This document shows, one piece after another, positions 7,943-38,334 of a stretch of 38,334 nt of DNA; the first letter of the stretch is position 1, and every line of letters starts with the position of its first letter. The DNA comes from Bacteroidaceae bacterium (GTDB taxonomy: Bacteria; Bacteroidota; Bacteroidia; Bacteroidales; Bacteroidaceae). Position numbers and translations under genes: made by a program. The stretch spans positions 1 through 38,334 of the forward strand of contig JAFYNL010000009.1 of assembly GCA_017548075.1 (NCBI GenBank), read 5' to 3'. The notes beneath the pieces were generated by a model, which did no database searches, had not been told where the DNA came from, and saw only the letters and a program-made list of their open reading frames with translations.

Positions 7943-9094
7943 TTAATTGCCTTCTCGGGCGTTTAATGTTTCCAAAATAATCTTGGCGGCTCGCTTTGGA
8001 GCGCCCTTTCCACCGAGGATTTCGGTCATTCGTTCGTAGCCTTTCAACTGCACTTCCCTACCCTTTTCATTAGGTAAGATAGAAGCCAAATGCTGACGGA
8101 CATTCTCCACATTCATTTGTTCTGCCACGAGTTCGGGAACCACTTCTTCGCCAACAATGAGGTTGACAAGAGAAATGAACGGAATCTTCAAGAACAATCG
8201 ACGAGCGAAAGAGGCCAACCGACCTGCTTTCATATAGTAACAAACCACTTGAGGCACCTTGAACAGAGCCGTTTCGAGCGTTGCCGTTCCGCTTGTAACA
8301 AGGGCTACTGAGCTGTGTTGGAGGAGCCGATAAGTCTGGTCGCGAACAATCTTAACACCCAATCCTGAAGCATACTTCTGGTAGAAATCATCATCGAGGC
8401 CAGGAGCAGCTGCAAGGACAAGCTGATAGTCTTTCTGGAAAGGCTTTGCGGCCTCGACCATCCGACGAAGATTGTCGCGAACTTCCTGCTTCCTGCTTCC
8501 TGCCAAGAGCGCGATAATGGGCTTCTCATCAAGTTCGTTATCGGCCCTGAAAGCGTTGAAATCGAGAGGGTTAGCCTCGAGGAAAACCTCCACTTCATCA
8601 ACCGAAGGATTGCCCACATAATGTACCTTATACTGATGTTGCTCGTCGAAATACTTCACTTCGAACGGCAAGATGCTCAAGAGGCAAGTTATGTTGCGTT
8701 TTATGTCGTGAATTCGGTGTTCTTTCCATGCCCATATTTTTGGCGAAATATAGTAGAAAACGGGAATGTTGCTATGTTCTTTTATGAAGCGAGCTATCTT
8801 CAGATTGAAGCCAGGATAGTCGATGAGGATTAATGCATCTGGTTGCCAATCCAGAATATCCTGCCTGCATCGTTTCATACCCCTCAGTATGGTTCGTAAG
8901 TGCCTGAGAACAGGAAGGAAACCCATATAGGCGAGGTCGCGATAATGCTGAACCAACTCAGCCCCTTCAGCCGCCATCATGTCCCCACCAAAGCAGCGGA
9001 ACTTTGCTTGTTCGTCTGCCTGTTTGAGGGCTTTTATCAAGTGGGCTGCATGAATGTCGCCGCTTGCTTCGCCAGCTATGAGATAGTACTTCAT
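7943..9094 (-). CDS. lpxB: Lipid-A-disaccharide synthase
   Basis: Glycosyltransferase family 19 enzyme that condenses UDP-2,3-diacylglucosamine with lipid X to make the lipid A disaccharide, acting at the inner face of the cytoplasmic membrane. It opens with MKYYLIAGEASGDIHAAHL, the LpxB signature. YYISPKIWAWKEHRI, a LAGSRKQEVRDN nucleotide-binding stretch and VTSGTATLETALFKVPQVVCYY follow in normal order. I place the start at 9094 because that ATG overlaps the surE stop as ATGA and gives the conserved N-terminus (383 residues). An in-frame ATG at 9106 would add four residues (MFTK). It is downstream of surE and upstream of the ABM-fold gene. Confidence 0.96.
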   Translation of the reverse strand: MKYYLIAGEASGDIHAAHLIKALKQADEQAKFRCFGGDMMAAEGAELVQHYRDLAYMGFLPVLRHLRTILRGMKRCRQDILDWQPDALILIDYPGFNLKIARFIKEHSNIPVFYYISPKIWAWKEHRIHDIKRNITCLLSILPFEVKYFDEQHQYKVHYVGNPSVDEVEVFLEANPLDFNAFRADNELDEKPIIALLAGSRKQEVRDNLRRMVEAAKPFQKDYQLVLAAAPGLDDDFYQKYASGLGVKIVRDQTYRLLQHSSVALVTSGTATLETALFKVPQVVCYYMKAGRLASFARRLFLKIPFISLVNLIVGEEVVPELVAEQMNVENVRQHLASILPNEKGREVQLKGYERMTEILGGKGAPKRAAKIILETLNAREGN

Positions 9095-9849
9095 TTTTGT
9101 AAACATTTTAGTTCGTCGAACAGACTATAAGCCGTCATATCCAACTGAACGGGAGTAATGGCTGCGAAACCATGATCGAGAGCCCAGTAATCAGTATCTT
9201 CAGCCTCAGGTTCAAGGTTCTGGAAGTAGCCACTCAAGCGGAAAGAGCCTTCTCCTTCGTCCGCCTTCACCATTTCCTTCATCCAAACTCCGCGACCAAT
9301 TCTGCAGACCTTCGCACCCTTCAAAGCCTCTACTTCAGGGAAGTTCACATTGAGCAGGACATCATGAGGAAGTCCGTTCTCCAAAACATATTGGGCCGTC
9401 TGCAAGATGACCTCTTCGTAAGGTCGGAAATCGCATTGCTGCTCCTTTGTCTTGAGACTGAAAGCGATGGCAGGAACCTGCTTCATGCAAGCCTCGAGGG
9501 CTGCTCCTACGGTTCCACTATAATGGATGCTGACCGAAGCATTGTCGCCATGATTGATGCCACTCACAACAAGGTCGGGCCTTCTCGTCAAGAGCCCGTC
9601 CAAAGCCAGTTTGACACAATCGGTTGGGGTTCCTGTGCAACGATAGACCTTCAAACCTTCCTCCTCCTTCAAAAGAGTGATGAAAATGGTATCGAGAGGC
9701 GAAATGCTGCAAGACGAAGCACTTCGAGGGCCATCTGGAGCCACCACAATCACATCGCCAAGCCTTTGCATCAAAGCGGTCAGAACCTGTATGCCTTGGG
9801 CATTTACGCCGTCGTCGTTCGAGATGAGTATAAGAGGACGATTCGTCAT
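9091..9849 (-). CDS. surE: 5'-nucleotidase SurE
   Basis: Metal-dependent phosphatase acting on 5'- and 3'-nucleotides, linked to stationary-phase survival. The protein is 252 residues. Metal-binding NDDG is at 11-14 in LILISNDDGVNAQG. The serine of VVAPDGPRSASS lies near 43 and VSGINHGDNAS contributes the conserved asparagine near 99. YSGTVGAALEA is also present. It is the first gene of the surE-lpxB-ABM transcript, with a strong Bacteroidetes-type promoter 20 bases upstream of its ATG. It diverges from parA across a 306-base control region carrying repeats. Confidence 0.96.
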   Translation of the reverse strand: MTNRPLILISNDDGVNAQGIQVLTALMQRLGDVIVVAPDGPRSASSCSISPLDTIFITLLKEEEGLKVYRCTGTPTDCVKLALDGLLTRRPDLVVSGINHGDNASVSIHYSGTVGAALEACMKQVPAIAFSLKTKEQQCDFRPYEEVILQTAQYVLENGLPHDVLLNVNFPEVEALKGAKVCRIGRGVWMKEMVKADEGEGSFRLSGYFQNLEPEAEDTDYWALDHGFAAITPVQLDMTAYSLFDELKCLQK

Positions 9850-9869: not shown

Positions 9870-9901
9870 CAAAGATACGAAAAAGGGAGGGAAAAAACAA
9901 A
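9870..9901 (-). promoter_or_regulatory. surE promoter
   Basis: On the minus strand TTTG (9901-9898) is followed after exactly 20 bases by TATCTTTG (9877-9870), matching the Bacteroidetes -33/-7 pattern. The inferred transcription start is near 9865, giving a leader of about 15 bases before the surE ATG. Confidence 0.75.
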
Positions 9902-9904
9902 TAA

Positions 9905-10014
9905 TTCGCAAACATAACACGTTAAATTGGCAAACGTAACAGGTTAAGATTGCAAACGTAACAGGTTAAGATTGCAAACGTAACAGGTTAAGTTTGGATT
10001 TTAACCACGTTAAC
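9905..10014 (-). repeat. 22-bp tandem repeat array 1
   Basis: Four contiguous 22-base units (9905-9926, 9927-9948, 9949-9970, 9971-9992), two of them identical, then a degenerate fifth unit to 10014. Read on the minus strand the shared core is TTAACSTGTTACGTTTGC. It belongs to the same family as the arrays at 16153, 28802 and 35650, in the opposite orientation. It abuts the surE -33 box on its upstream side. Confidence 0.9.
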
Positions 10015-10015
10015 T

Positions 10016-10065
10016 TTATCAACATCTCAGGCCTAGTTATCAACAAAAACACAAACTTATCAACA
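10016..10065 (+). promoter_or_regulatory. Three phased DnaA-box-like sites
   Basis: The 9-mer TTATCAACA occurs three times in the same orientation, at 10016-10024, 10037-10045 and 10057-10065. The spacings are 21 and 20 bases, about two helical turns. The sequence differs by one base from the DnaA-box consensus TTATCCACA. The sites lie just upstream of parA, and partition genes often sit near replication origins. They could be part of oriC or a DnaA-controlled element of the parA promoter. Confidence 0.5.
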
Positions 10066-10155: not shown

Positions 10156-10929
10156 ATGAGCAAAACAATCGCAATAGTCAACCAGAAGGGCGGCGTAGGC
10201 AAGACTACGACGAGCATGAACCTAGCTGCTTCCCTTGCCACTCTAGAAAAGAAAGTACTCCTCATCGATGCTGATCCGCAGGCCAACGCATCCAGCGGTA
10301 TGGGTGTGGACGTCAGCAAGCTGGAGAGTTCCATCTACAATGCTCTGCTCGGCCAGGTTGACATCAAGGAAATCATCTACACAACAGATATCGAGGGCCT
10401 CGACATCGTACCTTCGCACATCAACCTCGTCGGAGCCGAAATTGAACTGCTGAACATCAGAAATCAGGAGCGCGTCCTCAAGGACACAATACAGCCCATC
10501 GTCAAGGACTACGACTACATCCTCATCGATTGCAGTCCCAGCCTGGGCCTTATCACAGTAAACGCTTTGACCGCTGCCGATAGTGTCATCATCCCAGTCC
10601 AGTGCGAGTACTTCGCTCTGGAAGGCATCAGCAAGCTGCTCAACACAATTAAGATAGTGAAGTCGCGCATGAATCCTCGTCTCGAAATCGAGGGTTTCCT
10701 GCTGACGATGTACGATAGCCGACTCCGTCTGGCCAACCAAATCTACGAAGAAGTGAAGCGACACTTCCGCGAACTGGTCTTCAAGACGGTCATCCAGCGC
10801 AATGTAAAGCTCAGCGAAGCCCCAAGTCATGGCGTTCCGGCTATCCTCTATGATGCCGACGCAACAGGCTCGAAGGCCCATTTAGCGCTGGCTCAGGAAA
10901 TCATTGAGAAGAATAAAAACAAGAACTAG
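10156..10929 (+). CDS. parA: ParA/Soj chromosome partition ATPase
   Basis: Deviant Walker A ATPase that forms ATP-dependent dimers on the nucleoid and moves ParB-bound origin regions apart. The protein is 257 residues, the short chromosomal type without an N-terminal HTH. It has KGGVGKTTT at 11-19, [12 protein letters not shown] near 35-45 (Walker A') and the Walker B segment [13 protein letters not shown] near 115-127. It is followed after 8 bases by parB, the usual pairing. No classical parS palindrome was seen nearby, so its location is open. Confidence 0.97.
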
Positions 10930-10937
10930 CTACATAT

Positions 10938-11840
10938 ATGGCAATCAAGAAAAAGTATCAAGGACAGGCTTTGGGCAGAGGGCTCGACGCCTTGCTCCAG
11001 ACAGAAATCATTCAGACCAACGGCTCGTCGAATCTCTCGGAAGTGAGGATGGACGACATTCAGCCGAACCCCAATCAGCCTCGAAGTGAGTTCGACGACG
11101 ACAACCTGCAGGAACTCGCCAACAGTATCCGCCAAATCGGTCTCGTTCAGCCTATTACGCTTCGCGATATGGGCGATGGAACCTATACGATTATTGCGGG
11201 TGAAAGGCGTTGGCGAGCTTGTCAGAGAGTCGGCCTGACCACCATTCCCGCCTACATCAGAACAGTTGACGATGAGAATATGCTGGAAATGGCTCTCGTA
11301 GAGAACATCCAACGCGAAGACCTTACTGCAATTGAAGTGGCTCTAGCCTATCAGAACCTCATCGAACAATATAGTCTGACGCAGGATCAACTCAGCGAGA
11401 AAGTGGGCAAGAACCGCGCTACAATCGCCAACTACCTGAGGCTTTTGAAACTCCCCGCAAGCGTTCAGATGGCCCTTCGAAAGAGGGAATTGGATATGGG
11501 ACATGCTCGCGCTCTCCTCTCTATTTCCGATCCGAAGGCTCAGCTCAAGGTCTTCTCCGAAATGAAGAAAGGTCGCATGAGTGTCCGCCAAATAGAAAAT
11601 ATGGTAAGACTGCTCAGCGAAGGCGGTTCCGTAAAGACCAAGACTGGCAAACGCATCAAGCAGAAAGGCTCCAACCTGAGTGCCGACTACAATCTTCTGC
11701 GCGAAGGCTTGAGGAAAATCTTCAAGACGAAAGTGGAGATGACCTGCTCGAACACAGGCAAGGGAAAGATCAGCATTCCCTTTGCAAACGAGGCTGAACT
11801 GGAGCGCATCATAGAAATGCTCGACAAACTCCGCAACTAA
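10938..11840 (+). CDS. parB: ParB/Spo0J chromosome partition protein
   Basis: CTP-dependent DNA clamp that loads at parS and partners ParA. The protein is 300 residues. The basic N-terminal start ALGRGLDALL (residues 11-20) fits the ParA-interacting region. The ParB/Srx CTP-binding fold shows AGERRWRA near 87-94 and ENIQREDL near 122-129. The HTH region LTQDQLSEKVGKNRATIANY (147-166) recognises DNA, and a C-terminal dimerisation segment ends the protein. Its stop overlaps the next start by one base (TAATG), so the DUF5683 gene is translationally coupled. Confidence 0.97.
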   Translation: MAIKKKYQGQALGRGLDALLQTEIIQTNGSSNLSEVRMDDIQPNPNQPRSEFDDDNLQELANSIRQIGLVQPITLRDMGDGTYTIIAGERRWRACQRVGLTTIPAYIRTVDDENMLEMALVENIQREDLTAIEVALAYQNLIEQYSLTQDQLSEKVGKNRATIANYLRLLKLPASVQMALRKRELDMGHARALLSISDPKAQLKVFSEMKKGRMSVRQIENMVRLLSEGGSVKTKTGKRIKQKGSNLSADYNLLREGLRKIFKTKVEMTCSNTGKGKISIPFANEAELERIIEMLDKLRN

Positions 11841-16117: not shown

Positions 16118-16152
16118 ACATCCCTTCGCCTATCATACAGTTAAAATGCAAA

Positions 16153-16240
16153 CTTAACGTGGGTCGTTGCCCATCTTAACGTGTTACGTTGGCAAAGTTA
16201 ACGTGTTACGTTTGCAATCATAACTGCAGTTGTTTTCCAT
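16153..16240 (+). repeat. 22-bp tandem repeat array 2
   Basis: Three clear units (16153-16174, 16175-16196, 16197-16218) and one degenerate unit to 16240, each exactly 22 bases, with core TTAACGTGTTACGTTKGC. The array lies 35 bases after the relA/spoT stop, in the plus orientation. Confidence 0.88.
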
Positions 16241-16250
16241 CGTCACCAAA

Positions 16251-28114: not shown

Positions 28115-28606
28115 TCACTTTTTAATCAAAGCACGAACCTTCTCTATCAGTTCCGCCTCAGCACCATCGGTATAACCATTGTGCTTGTACACAATTTCGC
28201 CCATTCCATTGACAATTATCGTATATGGAATCATTTGACAACCAAGGGCACGCTTGAAGTCACCATTCGGATCGAGCAAGACCTCGTACTCCCACCCATG
28301 ATTGTTTACAAGCGGTTTCACCTTGTTGATATTCTGAGCCTGATCGATGCTGATGGCAATAATTTTCACGCCTGTCTCTTCCTGCCATTCCTCATAGACC
28401 TCGCTGATGGCATCCAGCTCACGATTGCAGGGCTTGCACCAAGTAGCGAAGAAGTCAATAATGAACGGCTTGCCGTTGTTGGAAAGCGTATCTGTGCGCA
28501 CCTCCGAGCCGTTCAGGGTTTTCAGGGTAACGGCAGGCAATTGTGCCTGAAGCGAACTAACGGAAAGGGCCAAAGCCACTATCGAAAGAAGTATTGATTT
28601 CTTCAT
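28115..28606 (-). CDS. TlpA-like thioredoxin (exported thiol-disulphide oxidoreductase)
   Basis: 163 residues. A signal peptide (MKKSILLSIVALALSVSSLQ, cleavage after AQ) exports it to the periplasm. The thioredoxin domain carries CKPC at 57-60 in IIDFFATWCKPCNRELDAIS and the cis-proline region MIPYTIIVNGMGEIVYKHNG. It resembles TlpA/ResA reductases. I choose the ATG at 28606. Another at 28618 would add MSER. It is the first gene of the five-gene operon and may supply reducing or oxidising power to the two Omp28-like CXXC proteins downstream, which is inference from order. Confidence 0.92.
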   Translation of the reverse strand: MKKSILLSIVALALSVSSLQAQLPAVTLKTLNGSEVRTDTLSNNGKPFIIDFFATWCKPCNRELDAISEVYEEWQEETGVKIIAISIDQAQNINKVKPLVNNHGWEYEVLLDPNGDFKRALGCQMIPYTIIVNGMGEIVYKHNGYTDGAEAELIEKVRALIKK

Positions 28607-28637
28607 CCTTTCACTCATCTTTTTCTAATTTCGCGTG

Positions 28638-28668
28638 CAAAGGTACAAATAAGCGAAGACAATACAAA
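28638..28668 (-). promoter_or_regulatory. Promoter of the tlpA-DUF6029-Omp28 operon
   Basis: On the minus strand TTTG (28668-28665), 19 bases, then TACCTTTG (28645-28638). The inferred start is near 28634, giving a leader of about 28 bases. Confidence 0.78.
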
Positions 28669-28801
28669 ATAATTAACTTATTTTTATTGTTGAGCGGGAG
28701 TACTTTCGACAAAGTCAAATTTACGAAATTCTTCCCAAACCACAAACACTATAACAGAAATAACAACTTGTTTTTAAGAGAAAGGAAAGCAACCCTAAAA
28801 A

Positions 28802-28889
28802 GTTAACGTGTTATGTTAGCGAACTTAACATGTTACGTTGGCAAAGTTAACGTGTTACGTTGGCCATCATAACACGCTACGATTGCAAA
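28802..28889 (+). repeat. 22-bp tandem repeat array 3
   Basis: Four contiguous 22-base units at 28802-28823, 28824-28845, 28846-28867 and 28868-28889. Three keep the core TTAACRTGTTAYGTTRGC, and the last begins CATAACACGCTACG. The array lies between the HTH gene stop and the operon promoter, in the plus orientation. Confidence 0.9.
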
Positions 28890-28909
28890 GACAGGAAATT
28901 CAGGAAACG

Positions 28910-29260
28910 CTAGGCAGTCTCTTCTGCTGGCTTCGACGCTTCGACAAGTCTTTTGTGATAGCCTATAACCAACTTGATTTCATTATAGGAAATCTCATCA
29001 GGACAGTATTCTTTTAGAGGCGTCAACCTGTATGTATCAGTCGCTTTAATAGCCTCCTCAACTTTCTGAATTACTGAAGGTTCCACAAGGTCATGGATAT
29101 TGACTCTCCCCAAAGTAATCAGCATAGCAAGATGACCGATAATACTTCCCACCGTTAACTCTCTTTGAGCTGCTATCTGTTCAGGCGTAAAACCTTTTTG
29201 AAACAATTTTAAGGTTGCTCTTTGCGTTTTACTTGTTTTGTTGGTTTTTCTCCTTCTCAT
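28910..29260 (-). CDS. Small HTH protein resembling the HTH_40 domain of RecQ-type helicases
   Basis: 116 residues, basic at the N-terminus (MRRRKTNKTSKTQR). Residues 15-60 (TLKLFQKGFTPEQIAAQREL, then TVGSIIGHLAMLITLGRVNI) match the pattern of the HTH_40 domain, usually found at the C-terminus of RecQ/YpbB-like or other helicases. Here it stands alone with its own strong promoter and no helicase nearby. It could be a genuine small DNA-binding protein or the remnant of a larger gene. The intact promoter and frame favour a working gene. A 9-codon frame (29286-29257) in its leader overlaps its start as ATGA. Confidence 0.75.
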   Translation of the reverse strand: MRRRKTNKTSKTQRATLKLFQKGFTPEQIAAQRELTVGSIIGHLAMLITLGRVNIHDLVEPSVIQKVEEAIKATDTYRLTPLKEYCPDEISYNEIKLVIGYHKRLVEASKPAEETA

Positions 29261-35078: not shown

Positions 35079-35615
35079 ATGAAATACATTAAACTGGTCT
35101 TTTCTTTATGCATTTTGAGCGCTTGCCTTAGTGCAAATGCACAGAATGGAGACTTTAAGATGCCTTTCGACCCTCGCTTTCACATGATTTTGGAAACTAA
35201 GGTCGGCTCTTATCACTATTCCAGAGGTGGTTTTGGCGTAAACTTCGTTTTGGAAAGGGAAATGAACAAGTATCTTGCTTGGGATGTTTTCAGCATAGAT
35301 TTCTCTGCTCCTTGGAATTGCGACCTCGTTAATATAGGCATCAAGACGGGTCTTCGAGGCTTTTCTCCTCGCTTTTGGGAGAAGCAAATGCGTGCCTATA
35401 CCAGTTTTGCTCTGGGTTACGACTGCGGCATTATCACGACCAAAATCGGTCCCATGACCGAGAGAGCCGGACACGGATTTGCCCTAAGTTGTGGTGCAGG
35501 CTTTCAGTTCAGAGAGAAGATTTTCGTAGGTTACGACTTCGAATACAGTACCGCTGAAATAGACAAAGGCAGATTCGGAGTCGCTCATTATGCTAAGATT
35601 GGCTACAAATTTTAG
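35079..35615 (+). CDS. Small exported beta-barrel-like protein
   Basis: 178 residues. A signal peptide (MKYIKLVFSLCILSACLSANA, cleavage after NAQ) is followed by alternating strands rich in aromatic residues and glycine (YHYSRGGFGVNFVLE, LVNIGIKTGLRGFSP, YTSFALGYDCGIITTKIGPM). The end, AHYAKIGYKF, with terminal Phe, is typical of outer-membrane barrels. No family is recognised with certainty. It follows the phosphatase by 11 bases and is probably co-transcribed. The cysteine near the signal-peptide end (SACLS) raises a lipoprotein alternative, but the lipobox fit is poor. Confidence 0.75.
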   Translation: MKYIKLVFSLCILSACLSANAQNGDFKMPFDPRFHMILETKVGSYHYSRGGFGVNFVLEREMNKYLAWDVFSIDFSAPWNCDLVNIGIKTGLRGFSPRFWEKQMRAYTSFALGYDCGIITTKIGPMTERAGHGFALSCGAGFQFREKIFVGYDFEYSTAEIDKGRFGVAHYAKIGYKF

Positions 35616-35627
35616 GTCTCATGAAAA

Positions 35628-35759
35628 CAACCCCAGTTACGTTGCCAAAGTTAACGTGTTACGTTTGACATTTTAACGTGTTACGATTGGCATTTTAACG
35701 TGTTACGATTGGCATTTTAACGTGTTACGATTGCAAACGTAACGTGTGAAGTTGACGAA
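35628..35759 (+). repeat. 22-bp tandem repeat array 4
   Basis: Four strong units at 35650-35671, 35672-35693, 35694-35715 and 35716-35737, the second and third identical, flanked by one degenerate unit on each side (35628-35649, 35738-35759). All are 22 bases in register, with core TTTAACGTGTTACGATTGGC. The array lies between the barrel-like gene and the YbaK gene. Confidence 0.92.
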
Positions 35760-35792
35760 CGACCTTACCCATAAAAACAAATATCTCATTTT

Positions 35793-36341
35793 ATGTCCGA
35801 CAGACAAGAAAAAGTCCTCAACTACCTTCGGGAACATAACATTCCGTTTTCCTGTTATGAACATCCAGAAGGAAAGACCATCGAAGAAGCAAAACGATGG
35901 TGGAAAGACGATGGCTCCGTGCATTGCAAGAACATTTTCATGCGCAATCACAAGGGCAATCAGCACTATCTCATCTGCTTCCATTGCGACCACGACCTCG
36001 ATATTCACGACCTAGAAGCACGCTTGAAGGCTGCACTCTTGACACAAGGAAAGAACTCTCCAGGCAAACTTTCCTTTGCTTCACCCGAGCGAATGATGAA
36101 GTACTTGGGACTCGAACCCGGAAGTGTTTCCCCGTTTGGCCTCATCAATGATGAAGAGCATCATGTTCATCTCTTTCTCGATGCCGCTCTTCTAGATGAT
36201 AATAACTACCGACAACCCGACAGGAAAACACTCTCTTTCCATCCAAACGATTGTAGAGGGACTGTGGTTATCAGCCTTGAAGACTTCAAACGATACCTCA
36301 AAGGACTTGGTAATACCTACGAATTCATCAGACTTTACTAA
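35793..36341 (+). CDS. YbaK/ProX-type aminoacyl-tRNA deacylase
   Basis: 182 residues, the free-standing form of the editing domain found in bacterial prolyl-tRNA synthetase (INS superfamily, YbaK/ProX). It should hydrolyse mischarged tRNA-Pro, most likely Ala-tRNA-Pro. The N-terminal segment VLNYLREHNIPFSCYEHPEG is followed by HCKNIFMRNHKGNQHYLICF, containing the conserved lysine of the deacylase site. LSFASPERMMKYLGLEPGSV, PFGLINDEEHHVHLFLD and the terminal region VVISLEDFKRYL come next. Bacteroidetes usually lack the insertion in ProRS, which fits a free-standing editor. It is a single gene just downstream of 22-bp array 4, with a terminator after it. Confidence 0.9.
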   Translation: MSDRQEKVLNYLREHNIPFSCYEHPEGKTIEEAKRWWKDDGSVHCKNIFMRNHKGNQHYLICFHCDHDLDIHDLEARLKAALLTQGKNSPGKLSFASPERMMKYLGLEPGSVSPFGLINDEEHHVHLFLDAALLDDNNYRQPDRKTLSFHPNDCRGTVVISLEDFKRYLKGLGNTYEFIRLY

Positions 36342-36420: not shown

Positions 36421-38334
36421 TTACTTCAGAATCTTCTTGCCTCCAACAATGTTGATGCCCTTCTGCATCTTGCTCAAACGCTGACCTGCAAGGTTGTAAA
36501 TGGCAGTTTCGCTCTGGATAGAAGTCGGGGTACTGATTGCGGTTACAATGTCTGTGTTGACGTAGGTCACCTCAATAGTCTTGATGCGAGCCTGAGCTGT
36601 CGACAGGTTCGTCAAGATAACATCGGCTTCAACGCCTTCCCAAGTAGCGGTAGTACCACTAATGACAGCCTCTTTGCCGGACTGATCCTTCCATTCCTTA
36701 ATATAGTCTTTGCCCGTAGCAGTCATGACAACCTTAGTGATAACATAAGGCACAGCAACTGACAATTTAATGTAGCTTGGCTCTGTAAGTGTTCTGTTAC
36801 CTTCTTCTTCAGTACCTTCATACTTGCTGCCATAAATCTTGATGTGAGTATCCTCGGGCTTAGCATAGGCTTTGTTAGCATAGAGAGTGAGGACTTCGTT
36901 GCGAGTTGCAGTAAGTTCTGCGCCAACTTCAGAAGCACCCTGACCTACTATGTCTGTATCGTTGTACTTAAAGGTAGCGTCAACATAACCCTCAACTGTA
37001 ACCTTGAGTGTAAAGCTCTTGCTGTCAGGTAAGTAAGTTTCTGTCTCTGCAACATTAGCGGTAATCGTTGTGGTACCCTTGCCAACAGGAGTGATGACGC
37101 CATTCTCGTCGATAGTAGCAACCTCTTCGTTTGAACTCTCATAAGTCACAACACCATCGGAATTGGTAGTGAACACAGCTGTAGGAGTCTCGTTGACATC
37201 AACAACTTCCTCTTCAACACTCCAAGAAGATTCAGGAGCAACCTGTGTAGTAAGCAACTCTATCTCGTCTGCTGTACGAGGAGCAATCTCCCAATAGCCA
37301 CTTCCACTATTGGGAAGATACCATATGACAACGCCAGTCACATTGTATGTCTTGCCTTCAATAAATGTTGGCAATGCCACGAATGTATTGTAAGGAGTTA
37401 TTGTGTTGTCATCATCATCAACGAACTTACCTTCTGAATAAGTCACACCTTCCAAGGTGATAAGACATCCCTGCATGTTAGTCTCGAGGTCAGCAATAGA
37501 AACATCTGTCATAGGAGTTGCACCCTCGCCCTTCGTTACAGTCACGCCTTCAGTGGAGGAGGTCAGACCCTTTACTTCAGGAGCTCCTTTATACGAGGTT
37601 AAAGTAACGAGAGCCTTACCTGTGAGTACATCGCCCACTTCAAAGTTATGTCCGCTTTGATAGAGAAGAATACCGTTTGCACCATCGGTAAAGTAAACAT
37701 TGCTATTCTTAACTCCTGTAACAACCCAGTTGTTGAACTCGACAATCTCCTCGACGTTAGTACCTTCAGCTGGTGCAGCTGCACAAAGCTCGGCAATAGT
37801 GGACATAGGAGTAACGATGGTGTAAGTTGCAGAAGCCTCGGAACTCATGTTAGCTCCCATATAAAGGGCATAAGCACGAATGGTAGTAGTTTCTGTAACC
37901 TCAACTGTTGCTGTGTTAGCCTCCACCAATGTTGCAGTCGTAGAAGCTTGTGGATCTACACCATCTGTTGTATAAAGAATGTAGCAATCCTCATCAGCAG
38001 AGATGGTTACTGTCACAGATTCCGCATAGACTCCACCTGCAGGACTAAAGGTTGGTCTTGCAACGCCACCACCATTATCTTCCTTCTTGAAGAAGCCGAA
38101 AGACTGATCTTTAATGTTGTTGTTGATTGAGGTGTAGCAACGCCAATCTGGGCGATCGAGATACACACCAACGTAGCGGTTTGTTGCTGTATTGACCAGA
38201 TAACCCTCTTCGCTAATGGTGAACACGTTGTTCGTGTTTGTTCCTACGCGAATGCCGTTGTTTGTGTCTGTACAATAGAGGTAGTTTGTTGTACCCTCAA
38301 CGCCAAACTGATAAGAAGACTCATCTACCGTTAC
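36421..38334 (-). CDS. Large secreted multidomain protein, 5' end outside the window
   Basis: The frame is open to the right edge, so only 637 C-terminal codons are visible. Reading in from the edge it begins VTVDESSYQFGVEGTTNYLY. Around 37810-38060 is a chitobiase-C-like domain (PTFSPAGGVYAESVTVTISA, then YILYTTDGVDPQAS). About 37240-37800 is an OB-fold-like region (VVTGVKNSNVYFTDGANGIL). About 37010-37190 is a Big_2-like domain (VVTYESSNEEVATIDENGVI). The C-terminus AIYNLAGQRLSKMQKGINIV, then GGKKILK, is a type IX sorting-like tail. It is probably an exported surface protein. The enzymatic part, if any, lies outside the window. A GTG at 38226 is in frame but is not a likely start. Confidence 0.85.
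   Translation of the reverse strand, partial: VTVDESSYQFGVEGTTNYLYCTDTNNGIRVGTNTNNVFTISEEGYLVNTATNRYVGVYLDRPDWRCYTSINNNIKDQSFGFFKKEDNGGGVARPTFSPAGGVYAESVTVTISADEDCYILYTTDGVDPQASTTATLVEANTATVEVTETTTIRAYALYMGANMSSEASATYTIVTPMSTIAELCAAAPAEGTNVEEIVEFNNWVVTGVKNSNVYFTDGANGILLYQSGHNFEVGDVLTGKALVTLTSYKGAPEVKGLTSSTEGVTVTKGEGATPMTDVSIADLETNMQGCLITLEGVTYSEGKFVDDDDNTITPYNTFVALPTFIEGKTYNVTGVVIWYLPNSGSGYWEIAPRTADEIELLTTQVAPESSWSVEEEVVDVNETPTAVFTTNSDGVVTYESSNEEVATIDENGVITPVGKGTTTITANVAETETYLPDSKSFTLKVTVEGYVDATFKYNDTDIVGQGASEVGAELTATRNEVLTLYANKAYAKPEDTHIKIYGSKYEGTEEEGNRTLTEPSYIKLSVAVPYVITKVVMTATGKDYIKEWKDQSGKEAVISGTTATWEGVEADVILTNLSTAQARIKTIEVTYVNTDIVTAISTPTSIQSETAIYNLAGQRLSKMQKGINIVGGKKILK

Follow-up and report, generated by a model that had tools for sequence, protein, structure and literature searches.

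Dispersed 22-bp repeat arrays in a Bacteroidaceae genus tend to keep their places between genes while their sequence differs between species

Iteron arrays of plasmid origins are direct repeats of about 22 bp that phase the bound protein, and they make up few sites at one origin. Among dispersed chromosomal repeats, REPs are described as GTAG- or CGTC-tagged hairpins with an associated tyrosine transposase (RAYT), and roles in supercoiling, termination and mRNA stability have been proposed for them (PMC3733652). The BrickBuilt elements of Porphyromonas gingivalis, of which 19 are described in ATCC 33277, are always intergenic, spacer-less tandem repeats of a 23-nt unit, with flanking subunits that have small inverted-repeat ends (PMC4596501). 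The DNA uptake sequences of Neisseriaceae are described as 10- to 12-mers that occur singly or as inverted pairs, frequently within genes and about 1-1.5 kb apart, and that form dialects, have permissive intergenic places and are associated with terminators (PMC3630211); a relatively even distribution of uptake sequences is the expected outcome of drive (PMC7811141), and their spacing is reported to match conversion fragments (PMC2397512). The closest functional analogues of the 22-bp arrays that we describe here would be dispersed binding sites on the chromosome or the dialects of uptake sequences; in the tests made, the arrays were without defining features of REPs with RAYTs, of CRISPR, of parS and of uptake sequences, and they differ from iterons in occupying hundreds of chromosomal sites.

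The window, by which we mean the whole 38,334-base stretch of DNA that was analysed, comes from an assembly of 2.66 Mb in 66 contigs that is 88% complete (genome label G000). The initial annotation had placed four tandem-repeat arrays in it, and all four are present where it put them, as judged by TRF (9908-9996, 16148-16224, 28799-28890 and 35636-35747). The arrays, with the genes around array 1, are as follows.

9891..10020, (-): array 1, four core units with degenerate units that keep the phase, between the diverging genes surE (-) and parA (+)
16148..16241, (+): array 2, three core units and the edge unit ATAACTGCAGTTG, lying where relA/spoT (+) and a CN_hydrolase gene (-) converge
28794..28891, (+): array 3, four core units, between an AhpC/TSA gene at 28115-28618 (-) and an HTH_40 gene at 28910-29260 (-), just beyond the 3' end of the HTH_40 gene
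35628..35760, (+): array 4, the left edge unit AACCCCAGTTACG and five core units, between an ORF at 35079-35615 (+) and a tRNA_edit gene at 35793-36341 (+)
9091..9849, (-): surE, adjoining array 1 (PF01975, E = 7.7e-59)
10156..10929, (+): ParA-type ATPase gene, adjoining array 1 (PF13614, E = 2.3e-72)
10938..11840, (+): ParB-family gene (TIGR00180, E = 7.1e-58, above cut-off)

The period is 22 bp in all four arrays, as had been claimed, although not quite without exception, TRF reporting 2% indels in array 1. For the core, TAACGTGTTACG, the window gives 16 matches at no more than two mismatches against 1.17 expected, and none of 100 shuffles reaches 16. All four arrays are intergenic, their neighbours according to Pfam being as listed (SurE and ParA for array 1, RelA-SpoT and CN_hydrolase for array 2, AhpC-TSA and HTH_40 for array 3, and a family-less ORF and tRNA_edit for array 4). 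The units adjoin one another, without the unique spacers of CRISPR, which had been excluded on this ground. Rfam gave no match to the arrays above the gathering score, three tRNAs being its only matches in the window. A partition protein had been suggested as the ligand; the parS consensus, TGTTTCACGTGAAACA, has no match within three mismatches in the window, even though parA and parB genes are present, which counts against that suggestion.

Three sequences outside the arrays also recur in related genomes. The non-coding stretch at 28635-28727 of the window, upstream of the AhpC/TSA gene, is 77-95% identical to several places in G113, G026, G122 and G088, among the matches listed; it contains GCAAAGGTACAAAT, the reverse complement of a TAnnTTTG-type Bacteroidetes promoter box, and may be a dispersed promoter-bearing repeat. 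At 36421-36505 (-), the last 25-28 codons of a protein with Big-like/chitobiase domains (YNLAGQRLSKMQKGINIVGGKKILK) recur often in nine of ten relatives, among the matches listed; this segment matches nothing in Pfam or NCBIfam and looks like a C-terminal sorting signal of surface proteins. Lastly, L048 9108-9294 is 74-92% identical to places in nine of ten related genomes, again among the matches listed.

Real as they are, the four arrays owe their number to the limits of the window. A script counted 47 arrays, these four included, in a genome sample of 438,334 bases made up of the window and 400 kb of further stretches, and one 20-kb stretch (L050) was without any; by extrapolation, this corresponds to about 285 arrays per genome. 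The search of the whole genome for the core that had been called for gave 760 matches to an 18-base motif with up to three mismatches, compared with 14 for the reversed control, and 22-bp arrays were found genome-wide. The spacing of the units is specific: repeat regions in the 438 kb number 42 at a period of 22 bp, 19 at 44 bp, and at most two at any other period from 15 to 45. A core lying at random positions without 22-bp phasing, which had been named as evidence against such a family, is not what we observed.

Each 22-bp unit consists of TTAACGTGTTAM followed by GWTKGCMAWC, such that a 12-bp dyad with imperfect ends alternates with a 10-bp dyad and their centres are 11 bp apart. The initial annotation had described a 5-bp dyad around three bases; a dyad is present, but it is wider than that and alternates with a second. 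Of the 47 arrays, 27 have three core units, 12 have two, five have four, two have one and one has five. Outer units hold the 22-bp phase rather than the sequence, and have CTGCAG, CTAG or CCCCAG as other centres. The consensus drawn from 94 edge units is close to AACNCCAGTTACG on the left and to the reverse complement of that sequence on the right, conservation at single positions ranging from 0.3 to 1.0; checked as inverted-repeat ends, the left edge AACCCCAGTTAC and the GTAACTGGGGTT-like right edge are roughly reverse-complementary and vary between arrays. Local homogenisation, proposed earlier because units seemed more alike inside one array, is not supported: mean unit identity is 0.741 within arrays and 0.748 between them, and the within-array figure is equalled or exceeded in 878 of 1000 shuffles. 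Among the 27 arrays of three units, by contrast, units with the same index in different arrays are 0.775 identical and those with different indices 0.750, a difference seen in none of 1000 permutations. Given this likeness by index and the lack of likeness within arrays, an array looks like an ordered composite rather than a freshly amplified satellite. For 143 arrays from 22 sampled genomes of the genus, the mean best-dyad score is 0.61, compared with 0.47 for column-permuted controls; some unit families, with examples in G070, G069, G122 and G123, are no more symmetric than the control (0.38-0.44).

Co-variation was assessed at the 11 dyad pairs of 132 core units. Pairs 2/11, 4/9 and 5/8 are almost invariant and hence little informative, and pairs 1/12, 13/22, 14/21, 15/20 and 17/18 have no excess of complementary combinations. 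Pair 3/10 has a z of 4.5, but the same positions of neighbouring units give 4.0, as a subfamily would; pair 16/19 has a z of 2.0, and the central pair 6/7 is anti-complementary (z -8.3). An RNA hairpin with a 9-bp stem and a CGTG loop is thus not borne out by co-variation at the informative pairs, three of the 11 pairs being nearly invariant. Compared with shuffles, the arrays fold more stably (mean z -2.13 and median -1.82 over 94 strands, 44% below -2), as any dyad repeat would. Of the gene ends with an array, 19 of 46 have a terminator-like hairpin, and of those with no array, 19 of 92; inside genes the count is 8 of 281.

Gene positions came from a hexamer-scored caller of our own rather than from annotation; it replaced an earlier crude caller that had put two of this genome's 47 arrays, and 17 of the 143, inside ORFs. 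With it, 78 of the 143 arrays lie between co-directional genes, 36 between convergent and 24 between divergent genes, four are at the ends of stretches and one is inside a predicted gene. Set against the number of gaps of at least 90 bp, there are 36 arrays to 71 convergent, 78 to 312 co-directional and 24 to 107 divergent gaps. Between co-directional genes, 70 of 78 arrays are nearer the 3' end of the upstream gene, with a median distance of 31.5 bp to that end versus 178.5 bp to the next 5' end. The preference for gene ends is not absolute, given the 24 arrays called divergent. Array 3 is scored as one of these because the hexamer caller misses the HTH_40 gene, which Pfam supports; the divergent gap of array 1 has Pfam support on both sides. 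Neither strand is preferred, with 11 arrays oriented like their co-directional genes and 12 opposite to them.

The arrays are evenly spaced. On four contigs, 43 arrays of this genome have a mean spacing of 8.3 kb with a coefficient of variation of 0.52, compared with 0.84-0.90 when the same number of eligible gaps was drawn at random; for each of six definitions of eligible, 0 of 2000 draws fell at or below the observed value. No spacing is shorter than 2.5 kb, where 23-25% would be expected, and the shortest is 3,548 bp. For 56 arrays in seven other genomes, with arrays closer than 600 bp merged, the coefficient of variation is 0.61 versus 0.91-0.94 (p<=0.0005), and 8% of spacings are below 2.5 kb versus 21-24% expected. 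Even spacing can arise from a function of the spacing itself, from drive with a characteristic fragment length, from target immunity, or from recombination loss between close copies. Outside arrays, single units are in no clear excess: at 15 or more of 18 positions, 135 matches are in arrays, one is in coding sequence and one in another intergenic region (shuffled patterns, 0.6 and 0.2), and at 14 of 18 there are 185, five and four (shuffled, 7.4 and 0.9), a slight excess in the other gaps. The lack of a clear excess argues against a single-site uptake signal.

Related genomes, which were to be checked, proved to have exact 22-bp arrays with differing unit sequences in 20 of the 22 sampled. 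This count comes from a self-comparison at a shift of 22 bp, which assumes no sequence and found no region in G005 (5.6 kb) or G008 (40 kb). Other periods are rare in most sampled genomes, G129 being an exception (two regions at 22 bp, three at another period). The unit sequences, which we call dialects, differ widely between genomes (for example TACATGTA/GCAATTGC, GGTTAACC, GCCGCACGCGGCG and GGAGCGTGCTCC), and several coexist in G069 and in G122. This genome's own dialect is above background in a minority of other genomes, 11 of 100 having at least 30 matches, and is at background level in 92 searched genomes of other genera; four other genera of the family, sampled at 12 kb each, showed no 22-bp array, which is too little sequence to establish absence. 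A looser pattern of two 10-bp dyads 22 bp apart, applied to 139 genomes, gave 709 matches here versus three for the control, and raised counts in further genomes. Its reversed control is high in G053 (L065, 536), G055 (L070, 328) and G008 (L109, 279), and also in G087 and G074; for G053 and G055 this is because the unit contains CAACGTGTTG, and a reversed pattern serves poorly as a control where the repeat is palindromic. Six of seven genomes with few pattern matches have a 22-bp region at a threshold of 0.70, G030 having none, and some of these regions, most of them in G130 and one in G065, resemble satellites of short period. The CTTGCCATCTCCTTGCGAAGTA-like repeats of G065 (L184 1229-1392) fit a 22-bp shift but resemble a mixed short-period satellite. 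Six public contigs from three genomes, all Bacteroidaceae or Bacteroidales MAGs, contain the double unit, and two of the three genomes are from yak rumen or omasum. Full-text searches of the open PMC subset turned up no published description of a 22-bp element and no named element with this sequence, in line with the initial annotation.

To compare orthologous gaps, we anchored three regions of this genome in ten relatives. Gaps with an array here have one in the ortholog in 19 of 27 cases, and gaps with none here in 4 of 112; at control periods of 20, 21, 23 and 24 the array detector fires in 8 of 556 trials. When divergent gaps and those shorter than 60 bp on either side are left out, the figures are 19 of 25 versus 2 of 25 (Fisher, 1.6e-6), and the two exceptions, with an array in the partner only, fall in one gap, one of them (G129) being low-complexity by eye. 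Counted per gap, there is a partner array for all six own-array gaps with orthologs and for 3 of 19 gaps without an own array. Six of the 19 partner arrays sit in gaps longer than 1.2 kb, which may hold another gene, and start within about 65 bp of the same upstream gene. These counts, which are not independent since they come from three regions and related species, show that array positions are conserved in the regions tested. An unanchored ortholog test, less strict because the anchored one required both flanking genes to match, found no excess (5 shared versus about 4.2 expected, 115 pairs). At sites corresponding to those of the window, relatives have an adjacent array at 3 of 7 loci related to array 4 and at 4 of 5 related to array 3.

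Partner arrays in orthologous gaps carry other dialects. At the gap L040 16712-16837, three relatives are equal in length (156 bp with margins); two share a dialect and the third differs. Across dialects, the flanks are identical at 37 of 47 and 39 of 44 positions and the array at 73 of 109 and 72 of 112, with the phase the same. At this site the units of one array differ together while position and phase stay, and, as a general tendency, related bacteria have arrays at corresponding places but with sequences that vary between species.

In one pair of genomes, G122 and G104 (L161 8936-9287 and L164; gap L048 11887), arrays are identical at 83 of 88 positions and flanks at 233 of 264, with differences mostly at one end; larger aligned stretches around the gap are 87-93% identical. 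This is suggestive of an exchange of the array-bearing gap between the two genomes, but only suggestive.

We place first, tentatively and at somewhat short of an even chance, the reading that the arrays are predicted site clusters for a sequence-specific, probably dimeric protein that would mark the chromosome between transcription units, about 8 kb apart in this genome. Each 22-bp unit would offer two dyads 11 bp apart, one of 12 bp and one of 10 bp, and since a 22-bp repeat amounts to two turns, bound protein would recur on one face. A short cooperative filament could form over the two to four core units that are typical here (one to five are seen) and the edge units. The recognised sequence would be a species dialect, the units of an array shifting together with position and phase retained, and the sites may be rewritten by selection for a changed specificity of the protein, or by drive or gene conversion biased by that protein. 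Dimeric-protein sites in phased arrays had been proposed before, and gain indirect support from the average dyad symmetry, from halves that vary independently at most informative positions and from the lack of strand preference, which together suggest half-site recognition on duplex DNA. Beside what is observed, namely the period, the symmetry on average, the location, the even spacing, the positions conserved in the three regions tested and the joint difference of units at one site, we infer protein binding, a dimeric state and a role in chromosome organisation or transcription-unit insulation. A purely self-propagating short repeat, the other earlier proposal, is less likely given the conserved array positions and the lack of a clear excess of isolated units.

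The fact that is hardest to explain is the coordinated change of dialect, which points either to co-evolution of protein and sites over hundreds of arrays or to drive, by biased gene conversion or biased DNA uptake. For binding arrays, a changed specificity would need to alter roughly 285 arrays by extrapolation, which would be hard for selection alone. The coexistence of several dialects in G069 and G122, the unit families no more symmetric than the control, the arrays called divergent, the absence of a conservation signal in the unanchored test, and the greater frequency of terminator-like hairpins at gene ends with arrays also count against this reading.

Second, and unlikely in our judgement, is self-recognition during natural transformation, whereby a receptor would prefer DNA of the dialect, and biased uptake with recombination would spread the motif and change it in place. 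Like uptake sequences, the arrays consist of a short motif that is found throughout the genome, prefers intergenic places, is associated with terminators, is evenly spaced and has different dialects in related species, and the coordinated difference in place and the absence of strand bias in these arrays are also as such a drive would have it. The genome encodes a ComEC-type Competence domain (PF03772, E = 1.2e-58), although this is weak support, since 10 of 14 control genomes, including Escherichia coli, also match the family. However, we see only multi-unit arrays about 8 kb apart rather than 1-1.5 kb, several dialects can share a genome, and single units are not in clear excess outside arrays, coding regions included, unlike the common intragenic uptake sequences described for Neisseria (PMC3630211).

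Less probable still is an ordered MITE- or BrickBuilt-like cassette with inverted-repeat ends, moved by a putative transposase, whose copies would be separated by target immunity or recombination loss and would later diverge. As described (PMC4596501), BrickBuilt elements share with our arrays a tandem organisation without spacers, units of almost the same length and an intergenic location; their inverted-repeat ends may have a counterpart in the edges of the arrays, which vary from array to array. The ordered unit signature, the roughly inverted edges and the absence of close spacings in this genome are what such a cassette would leave. The arrays differ from BrickBuilt in their 22-bp period, their abundance (47 in 438 kb), their many dialects across the genus, their even spacing and their conserved places. 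Moreover, orthologous gaps hold arrays of different dialects, and the same phase and flanks at one site with different dialects are not expected from independent insertion. Array-less orthologous gaps exist (in G108, gaps of -4 and 51 bp), and no clean junction or target-site duplication was found in them. The Y1 transposase family PF01797 has no match in the 88%-complete genome, while it was found in 5 of 14 control genomes, and array 4 has no match in plasmid or phage collections. The arrays are like REPs (PMC3733652) and BIMEs in being dispersed small palindromic repeats, intergenic and near 3' ends; REPs with a RAYT were rejected for want of a PF01797 match in this 88%-complete genome, and the strict 22-bp tandem arrangement is a further difference.

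We consider it improbable that the arrays are recognised by DNA shape, as gyrase sites or similar topology-related sites would be, and that their sequence drifts and is exchanged between arrays by gene conversion, as in BIMEs. The bias towards 3' ends and convergent gaps and the even spacing would fit relief of positive supercoils, and a conserved position with free sequence would fit shape reading. A shift of 11 bp gives a weak signal in 42 arrays of this genome, with correlations of 0.19 for AA/TT steps and 0.17 for roll (0.53 and 0.59 at 22 bp), but in other genomes (168 arrays) A/T content, YR steps, AA/TT steps and roll all give values between -0.04 and -0.06, and hence there is no shared phased-bend signal. 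In fifth and last place, 3'-end hairpins acting in RNA as terminators or stabilisers would account for the 3'-end bias, the terminator-like hairpins and the better folding, and are the least probable of these explanations given the lack of co-variation at most informative dyad pairs and the arrays in divergent gaps, array 1 included.

Taken as putative binding arrays, the repeats would form a chromosome-wide grid, about one per 8 kb at gene boundaries, with positions inherited and sequence rewritten between species, which would divide the chromosome and possibly distinguish self from foreign DNA; we put this forward as a possibility that is itself rather doubtful. In this genus we see a dispersed repeat whose place, phase and spacing are maintained from one species to another, its sequence meanwhile changing in a concerted way. 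Should a protein read these sites, they would offer many natural dialects for the study of specificity, with hundreds of targets changing together, and a test ground for evenly spaced intergenic sites that may delimit chromosomal domains in these bacteria.
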